Part shown: positions 30,100 through 42,168 of the stretch, one piece after another
Layout: the number at the start of each line of letters is the position of its first letter
How positions within the stretch are numbered: the stretch's first letter is position 1
Assembly: GCA_012515075.1 (NCBI GenBank)
Contig: JAAYZC010000013.1
Location: 25,954 to 89,953 of the forward strand
Direction: 5' to 3'
Length of the DNA stretch: 64,000 nt
Source: Thermoplasmatales archaeon
GTDB taxonomy: Archaea > Thermoplasmatota > Thermoplasmata > Methanomassiliicoccales > Methanomethylophilaceae
Made by a program: the position numbers and the translations under genes
The notes under the pieces: generated by a model
The model's input: the letters and a program-made list of their open reading frames with translations, nothing else
What the model was told of the DNA's origin: nothing
Database searches by the model: none

Positions 30100-31485
30100 T
30101 CAGTGTTTGATATCGAGACCGAGGTCCCTGAGCTTCTTGACCGCTCCGTCGTAGACCTGAAGGTACTCCGCGGTCGGCTTGACGGTGAGAACGTCGTAAC
30201 ACTCGCGGAAGGTCTTTCCTGCAGGGGCGTTGGCGTAGTTCTTCTCATAGCCGCTGACGAGTTTCTCGAGGATCTCGTTGACATCGGAGACCTTCATTCC
30301 GGCTGTGGCGATAGCCGCCTCACCCATTATGCGGGCCTCCATTCCGGTGGTCTTGTCCTGCACGACACCCTTGGCGGCCGCGGATCCGGACAGGAGCTCC
30401 CTTCCGGAGGCGGTGTCGCTCATTGCCTGCGCGGCGGTCTCGAGGAGACACATCTCCGTGCAGGGTCCGGCCGTGGGGTAGTACTGGTTGGCCAGGAGCA
30501 GGTCGGTGTTGGCGTCGATGGCCGCCGCGGTGTGGGCGGCGATCTGCAGGGTCTCTCTGGATGTGGTTATCCCCCACCTGATGTGGATGGGTCCGTCCAG
30601 GTGGAAGTTGCCGCTGAACAGGGCGAACGATGCCAGATGGGTGGCGACGTCGCATATGGCGGTCTCCTCCACTCCGCCGCAGTATCCTCCGAAGATGGGC
30701 ATCTGCTCGATCATTATCATGTCACCGTTGGTTATCCATCCGGAGAGCATGTTGAGACCGGTCATGTCGATCTTCAGCTCGTTGAGCTGGGAGCACTCGT
30801 GTGCCTCCCAGGGCTTCTGTCCGGCGTACTGCATGTCGGCCGCGAGCCTTCCCGCTGCGGACAGCGGGGTCTCGGGTCCCTATATGCCGAGTCCGGGGCG
30901 ACCGGCCCTGATCCTGGCCTCCTTCACCGCCCTGAGCTCGGCCATGGTGGCCTTTATCTCGTAAGGGGTGTTGGTGGTCGCAGGGTGGCCCTCTACGGTC
31001 GCCATGACACCGTTCACGATGTGGTCGACGACTCCCTCCTGAGCGTAGCTCTGCATGACCTGGATGAATATGTCCTCGGAGACCGGTGCTCCGGTGGGTC
31101 CGCCCTGGATGATGGGCTTGACCGAGCTGTTGCCGCGCCTGGGGTAGAAGTAAGCACTGTCCCTACCCTCCCCGAGTTTCAGCTTCTTGGGGGTCTTCTT
31201 TATCCCCTCCCAGACTTCCTCCTCGGTCACGAACATGACGCGCTTGTTATCGCTGTTGTAGAATCCTGTCTTAACGAGCATCTCGAGACCGGCGTTGAAC
31301 AGGTTGTTCATGGTCTCCTTATCCTCGGGGACGATCTTCTTGCCGAAATCGAGCTTGTATTTTTCCTTCAGCTCGGTGGCGTTTCCGGGAATGATGGAGT
31401 AGTCCCACTCTGCCTCATCGACCTTCTTCCCCTTGGCGAAGCGGTCGTATACATCCCAGATGTTCAATGCTCTTTCTGCAGCCAT
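30100..31485 (-). CDS. mtbB: Dimethylamine methyltransferase MtbB (copy 1) with in-frame amber (Pyl) at 30880..30882
   Basis: Two adjacent ORFs join through a single TAG in PGLGI-TAG-GPETPLSAAGRLA; homology continues in the same frame (ECSQLNELKIDMTGLNML). Confidence 0.94.
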
Positions 31486-31487
31486 TT

Positions 31488-32126
31488 TTACACCTTCATC
31501 AGTCTGTTGACCAGTTCGATGATCTCCGCGCCGTTCTCGGAGTATCCGCTTGCGCCTATCTTGTCGCACCACTCCTGCGTGCAGGGTGCGCCGCCGAATA
31601 TGGTCTTGTAGGGCGCTTTGACCTCTTTCACGGCCTCCACCACCTCTGCCTGCACCTGAAGCGTCGTTGTCATGAGTGCGGAGCCTCCGATGATATCTGC
31701 TTTGTTGGTATCGGCCGACGCCATGAATTCGTCGGGGGACACATCAGGTCCGAGGTCGATGACGTTGTAGCCCGCACCGCGGAGCATGGCACAGCAGACG
31801 TTCTTTCCGATTTCGTGTATGTCCCCCTGGACGGTACCCATTATAACGGTTCCACGCATGGACTGGTTGCCTGCCTGGAGAACGGGCGCAAGTATCTTGA
31901 GTGCTGCCTCCATGCTCTTCGATGCGGCGATTACCTGGGGGAGATAGATCTCTGCCTTGTCGAACTTCTCTCCGATGACCTCCATCCCTGCCCCGAGTCC
32001 CTTCTCGATGATCTCTTTGGGGTCGAGTTTCGCATCCAGCGCCGCTTTGGTGGCACTCTCAGCGAGCTTTATGTTCCAAGTCTCGACCGAGGTTTTGAGA
32101 TCTTTAAGTATTTCCTCTTTGCTCAT
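31488..32126 (-). CDS. mtbC: Dimethylamine corrinoid protein MtbC
   Basis: GDIHEIGKNVCCAMLRGAGY; 2 nt from mtbB start; SD-like GGAGGAAGAAGAAATG. Confidence 0.92.
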   Translation of the reverse strand: MSKEEILKDLKTSVETWNIKLAESATKAALDAKLDPKEIIEKGLGAGMEVIGEKFDKAEIYLPQVIAASKSMEAALKILAPVLQAGNQSMRGTVIMGTVQGDIHEIGKNVCCAMLRGAGYNVIDLGPDVSPDEFMASADTNKADIIGGSALMTTTLQVQAEVVEAVKEVKAPYKTIFGGAPCTQEWCDKIGASGYSENGAEIIELVNRLMKV

Positions 32127-33060: not shown

Positions 33061-34233
33061 TTGGATATATGCATAATAGGAGGTTCATTCAGAGGGATGG
33101 AGTGCGCGTACCTCGCAAAGAAAGCGGGGTACGGAGTCACCGTTATAGATCGTGACGATTCTGCACCGGCAAGGACCATGGCAGACAGATTCTATGCCAT
33201 GGATCCTTTAAAGAATCCTGCTTCCGCAAAGGCCCTTTTCAGCGGAGCTGGGGCAGTGGTCCCCGCCACGGGCAACATCGAGCTTCTAAGGGAGATGGAC
33301 AGGGTGTTCAAGGGGATCGACACCCCCCTGCTTTTCGACGTAGCAGCCTATTCAGCTGCGGCCTCCAAGACGATATCCCGCCGTCTGCTGGATGGCATAG
33401 GCATACCCGCGCCGGCCATGTGGCCGGAATGCGGCTTCCCGGCGGTCGTGAAGCCCATGGATTCCCACAGCAGGATACCAACCAGCGTGGTGAACACACT
33501 GGATGAGCTGAGGTCGATAGATGAGCATATCGTACTTGCAGGTGATGATTCTTTCATACAGGAATGTGTCCCGGGAACCAAGATGGTCACCTGTGTGATA
33601 GGGAACGGGGAAAGGACACTCCCATGCATATCGGGTGAGCTGGAAGTCGATGATGGGTTCGATAAGAAACGCGTACGTTGCGATCCCACCATCAACAGCA
33701 GGCCAGCGGCAGCGAAACTTTCCAAGCTGGCCCGCGATATAGCGGAGGCGATGTCCGTTGTCGGCCCCCTCTTCGTCGAAGGCACGGAGATCCAAGACGA
33801 GGCAGTGATCCTGGACATAGACGCTTGCGTGGTTTCCATGATGCCCACGGCCATACTCCATTCCACCGGGTTCAACCTGCTCGAAGTGTTAATGGCGGCT
33901 CGGGTGAAAGATATTAAACCCGTAGCCCCGCGCGTGAAACGCGCGACGATATGCGAGCACATACTCGTCACGGACGATAGGCTCAGGTTTTGCGGCAACC
34001 GCGAGTTCTCCAGGATATCCTGTCCCAGGATACACGAGGGGTTGTTCGGCAGTACCGAGATCATAACAGATTATGCACCGGGACTGAGGACATGGAGGGC
34101 CACTTTGGTGACCACAGGAAGCGACATGGGGGACGCGGAGAGGAAGAGGGCGGAATGCATCGAAAACATCGTTTCCGAGTGCGGCATAACTCTCATCGAG
34201 GATCCGAAGCCCAGGATAGGAACCTCCAACTGA
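33061..34233 (+). CDS. PylC-like ATP-grasp homolog (paralog of pylC at 38577)
   Basis: Full-length similarity to the window's PylC (MECAYLAKKAG, WPECGFPAVVKP, STEIITDYAPG) with TTG start. Confidence 0.85.
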   Translation: MDICIIGGSFRGMECAYLAKKAGYGVTVIDRDDSAPARTMADRFYAMDPLKNPASAKALFSGAGAVVPATGNIELLREMDRVFKGIDTPLLFDVAAYSAAASKTISRRLLDGIGIPAPAMWPECGFPAVVKPMDSHSRIPTSVVNTLDELRSIDEHIVLAGDDSFIQECVPGTKMVTCVIGNGERTLPCISGELEVDDGFDKKRVRCDPTINSRPAAAKLSKLARDIAEAMSVVGPLFVEGTEIQDEAVILDIDACVVSMMPTAILHSTGFNLLEVLMAARVKDIKPVAPRVKRATICEHILVTDDRLRFCGNREFSRISCPRIHEGLFGSTEIITDYAPGLRTWRATLVTTGSDMGDAERKRAECIENIVSECGITLIEDPKPRIGTSN

Positions 34234-34450: not shown

Positions 34451-35833
34451 ATGGCTGCGCCCAGACCGGTTTCAATCTTCGAGGCATACGATCGCTTCAA
34501 CAGAGGTAAGAAGGTTCGTGAGGACACATGGGATTACGTTACGATTCCCACCAACGCTCTCGCAATGAAGGACAGGTACGACATAAGATTCGACAAAGGG
34601 ATCATACCGGAGGACGAGGGTCTCATCGACCGCCTCTTTCTGGCAGGCATGGACATGCTCGTCACAACGGGGTTCTACTGCCCCGACATCGGACGCACGA
34701 TGGAGATAACCGAGGAAGAGGTGTATGAGGGTATAAAGAAGGCCCCCACCAGACTCAAGTTGGGGAAGGGCAAGGACAAGGTGAAGATGAAGCCCCGCAG
34801 AGGGAATGCACCTTCCAAACCCGTAGTGGAAGGAGGGCCCACGGGGGCCCCTGTGTCCGAGGATATATTCCTTCCCATGATGCAGGGGTATGCCCAGGAG
34901 GCCACCGTGGACACACTGGTCAGTGGCGTCCTCTCCACTTTGGACGGACATCCTTCGACCACCAACACACCCTATGAGATAATGGCGACCATGGCGGAGA
35001 TAAGACTTGTCAGAGAGGCCATGGCCCGCGCCAACCGCCCGGGGATGTGCATATAGGGACCCGAGACCCCGCTGTCCGCGGCGGGCCGTCTGGCTTCAGG
35101 TCTTGCCAAGGGGGGGCTTAAACCCTTCGACCTCCATGAGTGTTCGCAGCTCAACGAGATGAAGATGGACCTGACGGGTCTCAACATGCTTGCAGGCTGG
35201 GTGGCAAGCGGCGACATAATAATGATAGAGCAGATGCCCATCTTCGGAGGATACTGCGGCGGAGTGGAGGAGACGGCTATATGCGATGTGGCAACTACGC
35301 TGGCCTCCTTTGTGATGTTCAATGCAGATACGCACCTCGGAGGGCCTATCCACATCAGGTGGGGGATAACCACTTCCAGGGAGACCCTGCAGATCGCCGC
35401 CCACACCGCGGCGGCCGTCGATGCCAACACGGATCTTCTTCTGGGCAACCAATACTACACTCTGTCGGGCCCGTGTACCGAGATGTGCCTGCTCGAGACC
35501 GCCGCGCAGGCCATAACCGACACCGCCTCCGGAAGGGAGCTTATATCAGGATCCGCGTCGTCCAAAGGTGTCGTCAGGGACAAAACCTCCCCCATGGAGG
35601 CGAGGATGATGGGGGAAGCGGCTATCGCCACCATGGGCCGGGACATACACGAGGTCAACACACTACTTGACAGGCTTGTATCCAGCTACGAGAAGGATTT
35701 CTCCCGGGCACCTGCCGGAAAGACCTTCCAGGAGTGCTATGATGTGCAGAACATAACGCCCACCAAGGAGCACATGGCAGTTTATGACGGCGCCGTGAGC
35801 CGCCTTAGGAGATTGGGCCTGGAGATAGCCTGA
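34451..35833 (+). CDS. mtbB: Dimethylamine methyltransferase MtbB (copy 2) with in-frame amber (Pyl) at 35054..35056
   Basis: PGMCI-TAG-GPETPLSAAGRLAS then ECSQLNEMKMDLTGLNML in the same frame. Confidence 0.93.
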
Positions 35834-36549: not shown

Positions 36550-36620
36550 GGGGGACGGTCTGGTGACCAGCTGGTCTCTAAAGCCTCGCTAGCAGGGTTC
36601 GATTCCCTGGTCTCTCGCCA
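36550..36620 (+). tRNA. pylT: tRNA-Pyl(CTA), amber suppressor
   Basis: GGGGGACGGTCTGGTGACCAGCTGGTCTCTAAAGCCTCGCTAGCAGGGTTCGATTCCCTGGTCTCTCGCCA: 7-bp acceptor, CTA anticodon, minimal D-arm, encoded CCA, 21 bp before pylS. Confidence 0.95.
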
Positions 36621-36641: not shown

Positions 36642-37463
36642 ATGGTAAAGCTGACGCCTTCGCAGGAACAGCGCATGTGGGAATACAGCGACGATATCTT
36701 CGAAGATGCGGAGTACGCCACGGCCCAGGAGCGCGACAGACAGTACGCAAAGACGATGTCCGGGTTGACCGCCATAAACAGGAAGGCCATAACAGACATG
36801 TTAGAGAGACCATCCAGGCATTGTCTGGCACAGTTGGAAAGAGATCTTGCGCAGGCGCTCGTCGAACAAGGATTCACAGAGGTCAGGACGCCTTCGATCA
36901 TCTCCAAGGCCGCCCTCGCCAAGATGACGATCACCGAGGATCATCCTCTTTACAGACAGCTCTTCTTCGTGGACGACAGACGTGTGCTCAGGCCCATGCT
37001 GGCCCCTAACCTTTACTTCGTGATGAGGAGGCTGCGTGATTTCACTGACGGGCCAGTGCGCATATTCGAGATAGGGTCGTGTTTCAGGAAGGAGTCCCAC
37101 AGCACCAACCACCTGGAGGAGTTCACCATGCTAAATCTGGTGGAACTCGGACCCGAGGGGGATCCGGTGGACCGTCTGAAAGAACACATAGATCTGATAA
37201 TGAGAACAGCCGGCATGGAGTACACCCTGACCGAAGAGACATCTGATGTTTACAGGACGACCCTGGATGTCGAGGTGGACGGAGAGGAGATGGCCTCGGG
37301 GGCCGTGGGCCCCCATGTGCTGGACCCGGTACACGACATACACGAGCCCTGGAGCGGCGTCGGATTCGGACTGGAGAGGCTTATAATGCACCGGACCGGC
37401 AAGAAGAACATAAAGAAGGCCGGAAGGAGCCTTGTGTACCTCAACGGTGCGAAGATAGACTGA
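36642..37463 (+). CDS. pylS: Pyrrolysyl-tRNA synthetase, catalytic domain only (no N-terminal domain)
   Basis: LRPMLAPNLYFVMRRLRDFTDGPVRIFEIGSCFRKESHSTNHLEEFTMLNL; GPHVLDPVHDIHEPWSGVGFGLERL; 273 aa. Confidence 0.96.
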   Translation: MVKLTPSQEQRMWEYSDDIFEDAEYATAQERDRQYAKTMSGLTAINRKAITDMLERPSRHCLAQLERDLAQALVEQGFTEVRTPSIISKAALAKMTITEDHPLYRQLFFVDDRRVLRPMLAPNLYFVMRRLRDFTDGPVRIFEIGSCFRKESHSTNHLEEFTMLNLVELGPEGDPVDRLKEHIDLIMRTAGMEYTLTEETSDVYRTTLDVEVDGEEMASGAVGPHVLDPVHDIHEPWSGVGFGLERLIMHRTGKKNIKKAGRSLVYLNGAKID

Positions 37464-37473
37464 AGGCGTGAAG

Positions 37474-38580
37474 ATGACGACCGAGAACACGACGCGCGAT
37501 GTCATCACAAGGGCCGTGAGGCCCTCCGAGGACACAGAGGGGATACTCTCCAAAGCCTCCGAATGCAGGGGCCTGGATAGGAACGAGATAGAAGCCCTGG
37601 TCTCCCTGAAGGACGGGAGAGACATAGAAAGACTCTTCGAGACCGCCCAGGAGGTCAGGGACAGGATGTTCGGGAACAGGATATCGGTATACGGTTTCGT
37701 GTACTTCTCCACCCACTGCAGGAACAGCTGCGCCTTCTGCTATTACAGACAGACGAACACGGGCCTGCCCAGATACAGGAAGACCAGGGAGGAGGTGGTA
37801 TCGCTGTCCTGCGACCTCGAGGATGCGGGGGTCAACCTCGTGGACCTTACCATGGGCGAGGACCCGGTCATGTACGCGGACGGATACGCAGGCCTAATAG
37901 ACATGATATCCTCGGTCAACGAGGCCGTGGATGTGGCCATAATGGCCTCGCCGGGGGCCCTGCCGCCGGAGGTCTTCCCCCGCATCAGGGAAGCAGGGGC
38001 GGACTGGTACGCTTGCTATCAGGAGACCCACAACCGCGAACTCTTCCAGAGGATGAGATTGGACCAGGATTACGACTTCAGGCTCAGTCAGAAGGCCTGG
38101 GCACGCTCCGCTGGGCTGCTTACGGAAGAGGGAATGCTTACAGGGATCGGGGATACGGCCAAGGACCGTGCCGATTCCATCCTGGAGATGGGGGAGCTCG
38201 GCTGCCAGCAGATAAGGGCGATGACCTTCGTGCCGCAGTGCGGCACCCCCATGCAGGACCGCAGACCAACCGACTCGCTCAGCGAGAGGATGGCGATGGC
38301 CGTGATGAGGCTGGCTTACCCCGACAGGTTGATCCCGGCGAGTCTGGATGTCGAGGGCACCGACGGCCTGGCATCGAGGATAGACGCGGGTGCCAACATC
38401 ATAACTTCGATAGTCCCGCCGCATCTGAACCTGGCCGGGGTCGCCCAGCACGATCTGGACATAGACAACGGGCACCGTTCAGTCCAACACATAATCGAGA
38501 TGCTGGACGGCATGGGCCGCAAAGTCTCCACCAACAACGAATACAAGAGCATGATAGAGGCCAGGAGGCCGAAGGCATGA
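37474..38580 (+). CDS. pylB: Pyrrolysine biosynthesis radical SAM protein PylB
   Basis: YFSTHCRNSCAFCYYR (CxxxCxxC); operon position. Confidence 0.95.
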   Translation: MTTENTTRDVITRAVRPSEDTEGILSKASECRGLDRNEIEALVSLKDGRDIERLFETAQEVRDRMFGNRISVYGFVYFSTHCRNSCAFCYYRQTNTGLPRYRKTREEVVSLSCDLEDAGVNLVDLTMGEDPVMYADGYAGLIDMISSVNEAVDVAIMASPGALPPEVFPRIREAGADWYACYQETHNRELFQRMRLDQDYDFRLSQKAWARSAGLLTEEGMLTGIGDTAKDRADSILEMGELGCQQIRAMTFVPQCGTPMQDRRPTDSLSERMAMAVMRLAYPDRLIPASLDVEGTDGLASRIDAGANIITSIVPPHLNLAGVAQHDLDIDNGHRSVQHIIEMLDGMGRKVSTNNEYKSMIEARRPKA

Positions 38581-39737
38581 GGCTCGGCATCGTGGGCGGG
38601 GCTCTCCAGGGGATGGAGGCCGCATATCTGGCCAAGCACGCCGGCATGACGTCTGTGGTTATGGACAGGCGCCCCGATGCACCGGCCCTCTCGATGGCCG
38701 ACGAAAAGGCAGTCGTCGATCCTGTGAAGGATCCCGAGGCGGCCAGGGACATCCTCTGCAGATGCGATGCGGTCATACCCGCATGTGAGAACATGGATCT
38801 TCTACTTGCGCTGGAGAGGATCCTCTACCGTACAGGGACGCCTCTGCTCTTCGACACGGAATCCTATCGTACCTCCTGCTCCAAGGAGGCCTCCAACAGA
38901 ATGATGGGGGGCCTGGGTGTGCCTCTGCCTCTGCCTTGGCCCGAATGCGGTTTCCCCGCCGTCGTCAAGCCCTCGTCCCAAAGCGGCAGCGTGGGTGTCA
39001 GCGTCGTATACAGCGACGAGGATGTCAGGAGGGGTCTGGAGGCGGTCGGCAGACTGAATGACACTCCCGTGATCCAGGAGTTCGTGCACGGGAAGAGCGT
39101 TTCCCTGGAGGTCATCGGAACCGGGAGGAGCGTCGAATCGTATGTCACCACCGAGGTGGTGCTAGACAGCGGATACGATTGCAAGATGGTAAGATGCAAC
39201 CCGGACGTTCTAGGCCCCGAGGACGATGCGGCGTTCAGAGAGATAGGGAGGAGGGTCGCCAAGGCGATGCGGCTACAGGCTCTGATGGACGTCGAAGCCA
39301 TACTGACCCCCAAAGGACTGAGGGTCCTGGAGATAGATGCCCGCATACCGAGCCAGACCCCTGCGGCGGTGTACGCCGCCACCGGAATAAACCTTCTGGA
39401 TATGCTGGTCGGATCCGCCCTCGGCAGGTCGCTGGAGGCAGAGAGCTCCGGAGGGGCCTCGGTGTACGAGCATTTCGTGATCAACGGCAACAGGATATCG
39501 GCATGCGGCGAGAAGGAATTCTCCAATGTCCGGAATCCCCGCGTGGTATCCGGAATCTTCGGGTGCGACGAGATGATAACCGATTATGAGCCGGGGAAGG
39601 AGAACTGGTACACAACGGTGATAACCCGCGGAAGGACCGAAGCGGAGGTCGATTCCAAGAGGGAGCTGATAGTATCCGAGATCATGGAGACCTGCGGACT
39701 GGATGAACGCATGGATCCGAGGCCGGAGGCGGTGTGA
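38577..39737 (+). CDS. pylC: Pyrrolysine biosynthesis protein PylC
   Basis: ATP-grasp: VVKPSSQSGSVGVSVV, VLEIDARIPSQTPAAVYAATGINLLDML; operon position. Confidence 0.95.
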   Translation: MRLGIVGGALQGMEAAYLAKHAGMTSVVMDRRPDAPALSMADEKAVVDPVKDPEAARDILCRCDAVIPACENMDLLLALERILYRTGTPLLFDTESYRTSCSKEASNRMMGGLGVPLPLPWPECGFPAVVKPSSQSGSVGVSVVYSDEDVRRGLEAVGRLNDTPVIQEFVHGKSVSLEVIGTGRSVESYVTTEVVLDSGYDCKMVRCNPDVLGPEDDAAFREIGRRVAKAMRLQALMDVEAILTPKGLRVLEIDARIPSQTPAAVYAATGINLLDMLVGSALGRSLEAESSGGASVYEHFVINGNRISACGEKEFSNVRNPRVVSGIFGCDEMITDYEPGKENWYTTVITRGRTEAEVDSKRELIVSEIMETCGLDERMDPRPEAV

Positions 39738-40540
39738 TGCCCCGTCTGAAAGAGGAGGACGTAAACGAAGTGCGCAGGTCCCTGGAATCTCTCGACCTCA
39801 GGCTGTCAGACCTTATAGGCACGGACCTGCGGGGCCTGGCCTTCCGCACCGCAGGTTCGAGACCGGCGCTGGCGGGAATTTCCGCGGCAGTCGTCCCGGT
39901 GACCTCGGGAAAGGGCACGATATCCGGGTTCTCAGATTCCGTATCCGCCGTGCTATCACATCTGGGAATGGACAGCCTCGTAACCGCGGCCACAGACGTG
40001 GACGGTTTCTCCGAGGCCGTCTCCTCGGGATCCGACCTGATATTCATGGCAGACGACAGGAGGTTCCTCGCATACAACGTATCCGCCGGGGCATACTCTG
40101 ACAACGTGGACTGCACCGCCCGCGGGTACGTGGAGGCGCTGGAATGCGCCGAAGGCTCTCTCGGGGGCAGGACCGTGCTGCTGCTGGGGGCCGGCAGGGT
40201 CGGAAGGGTCGCCGCCGAATTCATGGGCTCCAAGGGGGCCTTTGTGCAGGTGGCGGATATCGACATCTCCAAGGCGGAGGCCCTGGGCGGGCTCCACAGG
40301 TTCGTGACGGTGCGCCAAGATATGGAGCGGGCGATATCCGAGACCAGATTGATATTCAACGCGTCCACGGCAGAGGTCCCTGCGGACCTCGTGCGTGAAG
40401 ACGCCATAATCTCCACGCCGGGCGAGCGCTTCAGCACCGCCGACGCCCCGGTCACGGTCAGAGCGATCCACGATCCGCTGGCCATAGGCACGGCGGTCAT
40501 GGCCGTGACCTCAGCGGTGCTCGGAAGGGATTCGAGATGA
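39737..40540 (+). CDS. pylD: Pyrrolysine biosynthesis protein PylD
   Basis: Rossmann motif VLLLGAGRVGRVAAEFM; after pylC with ATG/TGA overlap. Confidence 0.94.
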   Translation: MPRLKEEDVNEVRRSLESLDLRLSDLIGTDLRGLAFRTAGSRPALAGISAAVVPVTSGKGTISGFSDSVSAVLSHLGMDSLVTAATDVDGFSEAVSSGSDLIFMADDRRFLAYNVSAGAYSDNVDCTARGYVEALECAEGSLGGRTVLLLGAGRVGRVAAEFMGSKGAFVQVADIDISKAEALGGLHRFVTVRQDMERAISETRLIFNASTAEVPADLVREDAIISTPGERFSTADAPVTVRAIHDPLAIGTAVMAVTSAVLGRDSR

Positions 40541-42168
40541 GATACGGGATAGCATTGGACATAGGTACAAGCGGCTTCCGCTGCCAGGCTCTGGACCTGG
40601 ATACGAAGGAGACCGTCGCGACGGCGATAACCGCAAGGCACCCGATACCCGGGATGAACGTCATAGATCATGTGAACTTCGCAATCAGGTCAGGTGCAGA
40701 TGTCGGCAACCGGCTGATCCTGGCAACCGTCAACAACCTGTTCGGAATGTTGGGTGTGGACCTTGATAAAGTTGAGACCGTGGCCGTGTGCGGGAACCCG
40801 TTCCAGCTGTCCCTTTTCCAGAACATAGAGATAAGGGATCTCGCCTATGCGGGGAAGAGCATGCTCAGGGATCTGGGCGTGGTCTCTCCCGACAGGAGCG
40901 GAAATGTCCTGGAAGCCATGGAGCTGGGATTGTTCTCCGTTCCGAACGCCAAAGTAATCATACCTCCCGCCGTGACCCACGAGATAGGTGCCGATGCCAT
41001 AGCGATGCTTCTCGTCACAGGGGTGCTGGACAAGAACGAGACGGCCATTGTCGTCGACTACGGAACCAATGCGGAGATGGCCCTTGTGAAGGACGGGGAG
41101 GTGTTCACCGGGTCCGCCGCGGCCGGGCCTGCTCTAGAAGGACAGCAGATAGAAAGGGGGATGCTCGCATCGACCGGCGCTTTGTCCGACGTCGATCCAG
41201 ACGGTGAAGGGTGGGTCTGCCATGTTTTGGATCCCACCCTGGCACCCAGAGCCGGCGATACCGTCGATCCGAGAACGGGGGACATCATAGGGAAGGGGGA
41301 AATGCACGGGAAAGCCCGGGGCATAACGGGAACAGGGGTCGTCGCAGCGCTTTCCTGCGGGATAGATGACGGCGTGGTCGGGACAATGGGGATCGATACC
41401 CCTGACGGCATGATACACCTTCAGGACGGTATAAAGATATCACGCAGGGACGTGGACGAGGCCGGTAAGGCCATCGGGGCGCTGAGGACAGGTTTCCTGA
41501 CCCTCATGTTGGAGGCGGGCGTGTGGGTGGATGACGTCAAGACGGCTTACATGTCGGGCGCCTCGGGTCTCTACGTGGACGCCAACAAGGCAAAGTCCAT
41601 AGGCATGGTGACTCCCGGCGCGGAGAGGATAATACAGTTCGGGAACACCTCGATAGTGCTAGCACGCAGGCTGGTGCTGGGAGAGACAACCCTGGAGGAA
41701 CTGCGGACGTTCGCTGAGAAGCTGCTCGCCAAACATTGCATGTTCGCCACCTCGGAGGATTTCAAGAACATATACTCAGTGGAGTTGTCTTACTGGTGCT
41801 ACGGCATGCCCATGAGCGAGTACAACAATATGCTGGACATCTCCGGCATACCCCCAATACCCCTGGAGCCCAGTAAGGCGGAGGTTGAGAGGATGGTCAT
41901 CAGGGACCTGCCTGACATCGACGAGGATCGCGGGGTCACGATAATGGAGGCCCCCGGCGTGCTGCTGACGGGGCAGATCGACGGTTGCACCTACTGCGGG
42001 ATATGCCGGGACAGGTGTCCGGAGACGGCTCTGATGCTGTCCGAGGAAGGCGACGGAATCGTAGCCCACGTGAGGTCCGACCTGTGTGCAGGGACCGCAT
42101 GCAGGCGCTGTGAGAACGACTGTCCTGAGAAGGTATTCAGCTTCGACTCGCTGAGAATCGGGAGCTGA
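40537..42168 (+). CDS. ramA: Corrinoid protein reductive activase RamA
   Basis: IALDIGTSGFRCQALDL, VVDYGTNAEMALV, C-terminal ferredoxin motifs CTYCGICRDRCP and CRRCENDCP. Confidence 0.94.
   Translation: MRYGIALDIGTSGFRCQALDLDTKETVATAITARHPIPGMNVIDHVNFAIRSGADVGNRLILATVNNLFGMLGVDLDKVETVAVCGNPFQLSLFQNIEIRDLAYAGKSMLRDLGVVSPDRSGNVLEAMELGLFSVPNAKVIIPPAVTHEIGADAIAMLLVTGVLDKNETAIVVDYGTNAEMALVKDGEVFTGSAAAGPALEGQQIERGMLASTGALSDVDPDGEGWVCHVLDPTLAPRAGDTVDPRTGDIIGKGEMHGKARGITGTGVVAALSCGIDDGVVGTMGIDTPDGMIHLQDGIKISRRDVDEAGKAIGALRTGFLTLMLEAGVWVDDVKTAYMSGASGLYVDANKAKSIGMVTPGAERIIQFGNTSIVLARRLVLGETTLEELRTFAEKLLAKHCMFATSEDFKNIYSVELSYWCYGMPMSEYNNMLDISGIPPIPLEPSKAEVERMVIRDLPDIDEDRGVTIMEAPGVLLTGQIDGCTYCGICRDRCPETALMLSEEGDGIVAHVRSDLCAGTACRRCENDCPEKVFSFDSLRIGS

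Follow-up and report, generated by a model that had tools for sequence, protein, structure and literature searches.

The window, the whole 64,000-nucleotide stretch analysed here, comes from a methane-producing archaeon and carries a second pylC-like gene (pylC2), whose product has probably lost ligase activity, judging from its sequence. The most likely reading, which we put forward tentatively, is that pylC2 encodes a PylC-derived, ligase-dead pseudoenzyme with a non-catalytic role. The gene lies in a monomethylamine/pyrrolysine region in which mtmB1-mtmC1 occupy the minus strand and pylC2, mtmB2, pylT, pylS, pylB, pylC, pylD and ramA follow on the plus strand. The features discussed below are:

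30100..31485, minus strand: mtmB copy 1, with in-frame TAG (Pfam PF05369)
31488..32126, minus strand: mtmC-type corrinoid protein gene, divergent from pylC2
33061..34233, plus strand: pylC2, degenerate PylC paralog, 390 codons with a TTG start (PylC model match, alignment to PylC, AlphaFold2/Foldseek)
33439..33483, plus strand: former Gly-rich ATP loop of pylC2, codons 127-141, now PAVVKPMDSHSRIPT, K131 kept
33586..33594, plus strand: two 3-methylornithine pocket residues of pylC2, S and E changed to V and C, codons 176-178
33772..33843, plus strand: pylC2 codons 238-261, with D238F, E240 kept, E252D, D254 kept, R256C, Q260M and T261M
34451..35833, plus strand: mtmB copy 2, monomethylamine methyltransferase, in-frame TAG read as pyrrolysine (Pfam PF05369)
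36550..36617, plus strand: pylT, tRNA-Pyl with anticodon CUA (covariance model, 89.7 bits, the window's pylT itself being one of the six sequences behind the model)
36642..37463, plus strand: pylS, PylSc type
37468..38580, plus strand: pylB (translation; gene order)
38577..39737, plus strand: genuine pylC, active-site motifs intact
39734..40540, plus strand: pylD (homologs in pyl clusters of relatives)
40537..42168, plus strand: ramA, corrinoid protein reductive activase

Both methyltransferases of the window are MtmB (Pfam PF05369, 745 and 784 bits) and both contain an in-frame TAG; the first-pass annotation had correctly placed pylC2 between two methyltransferase genes but had named these mtbB. 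The gene order pylT-S-B-C-D agrees with published work (PMC3941956). The genuine pylC resides in the pylBCD operon, whereas pylC2 is 4.3 kb upstream of it, ahead of mtmB copy 2. Cotranscription of pylC2 with mtmB2 is unlikely given the 217-nt gap between them, which contains an AT-rich box and a separate GGTGAT ribosome site (both recognized by eye), and pylC2 appears to form its own transcription unit. ARAGORN missed the tRNA-Pyl gene of the window, which was noticed on visual inspection and retrieved with a covariance model based on its own sequence and five relatives; the same model, run with filters off, detected no second pylT beside pylC2 and only this single tRNA-Pyl in the whole window.

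Membership of pylC2 in the PylC family is supported over its full length. The frame comprises 390 codons with no stop or frameshift, residue 1 of the TTG-start product coincides with the PylC start, and the product aligns end to end with the genuine PylC (37% identity, 56% positives, 3 gap positions), bearing out the intact, PylC-like ORF described earlier. The NCBIfam PylC model TIGR03909 matches pylC2 with E = 3.6e-67, although the score (226.7 bits) is below the curated equivalog cut-off of 248.3 bits, compared with 341.7 bits for the genuine PylC. A Pfam search recovered no ATP-grasp domain above cut-off in pylC2, unlike in its neighbor PylC. The AlphaFold2 model of pylC2 (pLDDT 94.4, pTM 0.92) has a predicted full-length PylC fold, with the PylC entries 4ffm, 4ffr and 4ffl as top Foldseek matches in the PDB (TM 0.92-0.93 by target length, rmsd 2.4-2.9 A, 25-26% identity); since the input alignment consisted of PylC sequences, the model mainly demonstrates compatibility of sequence and fold and in part reflects the family.

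For analysis of the active site, PylC-like proteins were gathered from 148 genomes of the order and 75 were aligned, with the other 74 serving as the reference for pylC2. Of the 99 columns that show at least 90% conservation across these 74 sequences, pylC2 departs from 34. The phosphate loop reads MDSHSRIPT where the Gly-rich SSQSGSVGV is expected, and the metal/catalytic strand is D252-I-D254-A-C256 rather than E-x-D-x-R, in which E, D and R are at least 97% conserved among relatives; P258V is likewise among the altered conserved columns. The ATP-binding lysines K103 and K131 and the hinge glutamate E168 are retained, as are E240 and D254. We assign the roles of these positions (binding of ATP, metal and reaction intermediate) on the assumption that established knowledge of the ATP-grasp family applies to pylC2. 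The motifs quoted in the first-pass annotation for PylC and its paralog (KPMDSHSRIPTSVV versus KPSSQSGSVGVSVV, and LDIDACVVSMMP versus LEIDARIPSQTP) were correct, and its suggestion that ligase activity has been lost is well supported at the sequence level by the missing loop, R256C, the replacement of four pocket residues and the concentration of loss in the core.

The four pocket residues link pylC2 to a laboratory enzyme. The PylC variant S177N/E179P/D233S/T256V accepts D-cysteine instead of 3-methylornithine and acts as a D-Cys ligase (review PMC11467909). The corresponding positions in pylC2 are V176, C178, F238 and M261 (one constant offset of 8 reproduces all four letters), where at least 95% of relatives have S, E, D and T. 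That laboratory changes at exactly these positions shift PylC specificity raises the alternative that pylC2 is an active ligase whose pocket, now V, C, F and M, was rebuilt for another amino acid to yield a different lysine conjugate, and the retention of K103, K131, E168, E240 and D254 is in keeping with this. We nevertheless consider a new specificity improbable: the laboratory variant, which still ligates, is described as changed only at those four positions, whereas pylC2 has also lost the ATP loop (now MDSHSRIPT) and the catalytic Arg (now Cys), has Asp in place of E252, and is not recognized as an ATP-grasp protein above the Pfam cut-off as its neighbor is.

The altered pocket also bears on the role proposed in the first-pass annotation, in which a ligase-dead PylC fold would bind lysine, 3-methylornithine or pyrrolysine and control methylamine genes. 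A retained fold and a location between mtmCB copy 1 and mtmB copy 2 are consistent with such a sensor; however, the 3-methylornithine pocket is among the most altered parts of pylC2, the Pfam search found neither a DNA-binding nor an extra domain, and pyl and mtm genes commonly cluster, which explains the neighborhood, leaving this role with little likelihood. The same annotation also raised a regulator that would bind PylC or PylD, which pylC2 may be.

Loss in pylC2 is concentrated in the catalytic core. With a stricter set of 78 columns, each showing ≥95% conservation among 70 canonical reference sequences, pylC2 keeps 5 of the 15 catalytic or ligand columns and 46 of the 63 others (Fisher p = 0.005, an optimistic value, since some catalytic columns had been pre-indicated by the two motifs noted earlier and the set was chosen afterwards). 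The genuine PylC of the window keeps 78/78 of these columns, which rules out that it, rather than pylC2, is the broken copy. The ratio of core (residues 123-290) to flank identity, which requires no hand-picked columns, is 0.81 for pylC2 compared to 0.93-1.24 in 53 canonical PylCs, although with a bootstrap interval of 0.65-1.03 the margin is not wide. Under uniform decay this ratio would stay near the canonical value of about 1.08.

These results weigh on the close rival to the pseudoenzyme reading, in which pylC2 is a late-stage decaying duplicate of a pyl/mtm segment, once useful and now functionless under relaxed selection; we regard this as a real possibility. Neither a disrupted frame nor a uniform loss of constraint, as expected of a pseudogene, is found: the frame is whole, with few indels at 37% identity, and fold positions are much better kept than catalytic ones. 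When the genuine PylC was evolved neutrally to 37% identity in simulations, the mean number of stops was 7.9 and every one of the 300 runs acquired at least one, which implies that pylC2 was under selection for most of its history. Codon use is coding-like in frame (+0.129) and negative in all other frames. Decay finds support in the lower codon adaptation of pylC2, the lack of an ortholog in the genomes searched and a branch length of 2.3-2.6 changes per site. No other pyl/mtm gene tested has codon adaptation or GC3 as low as pylC2 (0.129 and 0.66, against 0.19-0.32 and 0.72-0.81 for the others); these values and the TTG start suggest weak expression, and selection on pylC2 may be relaxed at present.

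In phylogenetic trees, pylC2 forms a single long branch inside the PylCs of its family. A grouping with the PylC of the window is not rejected (AU p = 0.38), so that origin by a lineage-specific duplication is possible but unproven. A common clade of pylC2 with the extra PylCs of the termite-gut genus g9 was rejected (AU p = 0.004 and 0.005, to be read with caution given the long branch). Searches of the 148 genomes from the order, a broader sampling of the phylum and GTDB contigs turned up no close ortholog of pylC2 (identity never exceeded 41%), with the window's genus represented by this one genome among those searched. An alignment-based GTDB scan returned 450 relatives, the best with about 40-41% identity, and peptide patterns derived from pylC2 alone yielded no close ortholog in GTDB and viral contigs. 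The first-pass annotation had held that a lack of conserved orthologs, or decaying duplicates in relatives, would speak against a function. Each is seen in part: orthologs were not found, with 41% as the best match, and the other extra pylC genes resemble worn remnants of duplicated cassettes.

Extra PylC copies outside pylBCD occur elsewhere in the order. Methanomassiliicoccus luminyensis has a third, isolated pylC (PMC3941956; also in PMC5688252), and the pylT beside it is likely a pseudogene (PMC3941956). An M. luminyensis-like genome in our set (G059, contig L059) encodes two full pyl clusters and, standing apart from them, a pylT-pylC pair ahead of mtmC-mtmB (L059 4656-8359), a layout that agrees with the published one (PMC3941956). 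The tRNA of this pair reaches 58.7 bits against the tRNA-Pyl model, and its anticodon loop is shortened, which fits the published pseudogene call. Like pylC2, this isolated pylC, identified by cluster layout, lies beside mtm genes and apart from pylBCD, and its genome has complete pyl cassettes as well; unlike pylC2, it is preceded by a degenerate pylT, groups with PylCs of the order's other families and keeps 12 of the 15 catalytic columns.

The termite-gut methanogens of genus g9, which are related to Ca. Methanomicula, also have extra PylCs off pylBCD (L060, L054, L075, L079, L081), with an origin separate from that of pylC2 (AU p = 0.004). G081 (L060) has an mtmB-pylT-pylS2-pylC2 cassette, G082 (L079) and G029 (L081) have mtmB-pylT-pylC, and in G019 (L054) the extra pylC stands alone. 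The copies of G082 and G029 keep all 15 catalytic columns, those on L060, L054 and L075 keep 8, 7 and 11, respectively, and the L060 and L054 copies share with pylC2 a preferential loss of catalytic columns. At least three lineages of the order have given rise to extra PylCs with eroded active sites, most of which sit in what is left of duplicated cassettes. Such remnants at several stages of loss (G082, G029, G081, G019, G059), together with the published view of the M. luminyensis pylT as a likely pseudogene, speak for a process of decay; in the window, the unbroken frame of pylC2 and its uneven pattern of loss argue that decay does not account for everything.

Other pyrrolysine-related genes of these relatives show departures of their own. 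Three g9 genomes encode lysine at the pyrrolysine position of mtmB (L060 4262-5644, AAA; L079 3104-4507, AAG; L129 1435-2598, AAG), and in the L060 gene 109 of the 113 otherwise conserved columns are intact. Beside this lysine-coded mtmB and the degenerate pylC lie a tRNA-Pyl gene and a gene for a second PylS (L060 5860-6765), and the canonical pyl cluster of G081 is on another contig (L037). Of 50 PylS columns with ≥97% conservation, the G081 pylS2 alters 9 (V82L, M96L, L125F, Y126F, M129I, N166T, V168A, Y206F and A223T, numbered by alignment column), changes that are visible in an alignment to solved PylRS chains. Six of these positions (L125, Y126, M129, N166, V168, Y206) presumably fall in the amino-acid pocket of the PylRS of Methanomethylophilus alvus; pylS2 may encode a PylRS with an altered choice of amino acid or may be under relaxed selection. 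In G084 (L130 1318-2856), an mtmB-like gene adjoins a DNA polymerase gene and has a rewritten pyrrolysine region (GRPGMSVHASGPGRAP) that lacks both TAG and the GPET motif. In the aligned g9 tRNA-Pyl genes, the anticodon is directly followed by C (CUCUACA loop), where the other genera seen have A:

L054 197-263: g9 tRNA-Pyl with CUCUACA loop
L060 5860-5926: g9 tRNA-Pyl with CUCUACA loop
L079 4628-4694: g9 tRNA-Pyl with CUCUACA loop
L081 445-511: g9 tRNA-Pyl with CUCUACA loop
L084 13807-13873: g9 tRNA-Pyl with CUCUACA loop
L092 1154-1220: g9 tRNA-Pyl with CUCUACA loop

Under the pseudoenzyme reading, a pylC copy would have arisen inside the monomethylamine/pyrrolysine gene region and moved out of the pylBCD operon, keeping the PylC fold but giving up the ATP phosphate loop, the catalytic Arg and the 3-methylornithine pocket, and with them its chemistry. 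Its product would no longer join lysine to 3-methylornithine and would act without catalysis, most likely by binding PylC in a mixed oligomer, as partner or decoy, or by binding a pathway ligand; either could tune the supply of pyrrolysine during growth on methylamines. Counting against this reading are the low codon adaptation and GC3 of pylC2, its TTG start and a best match of 41% identity, too distant to show the dead form conserved.

Extra pylC copies are already known from M. luminyensis, and we found no description of active-site loss in such copies in the literature surveyed, which does cover the isolated M. luminyensis gene. Worn or dead PylCs in three lineages may reflect either erosion of a genetic-code-expansion cassette after duplication or reuse of PylC without its chemistry. 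That dead PylC paralogs became functional pseudoenzymes independently in all three, tuning pyrrolysine supply by pairing with PylC or holding an intermediate, is conceivable though doubtful. Because methylamine methyltransferases need pyrrolysine, a non-catalytic partner of PylC would be a new control point; if dead paralogs do act in this way, the pathway of the 22nd amino acid would have its first pseudoenzyme.
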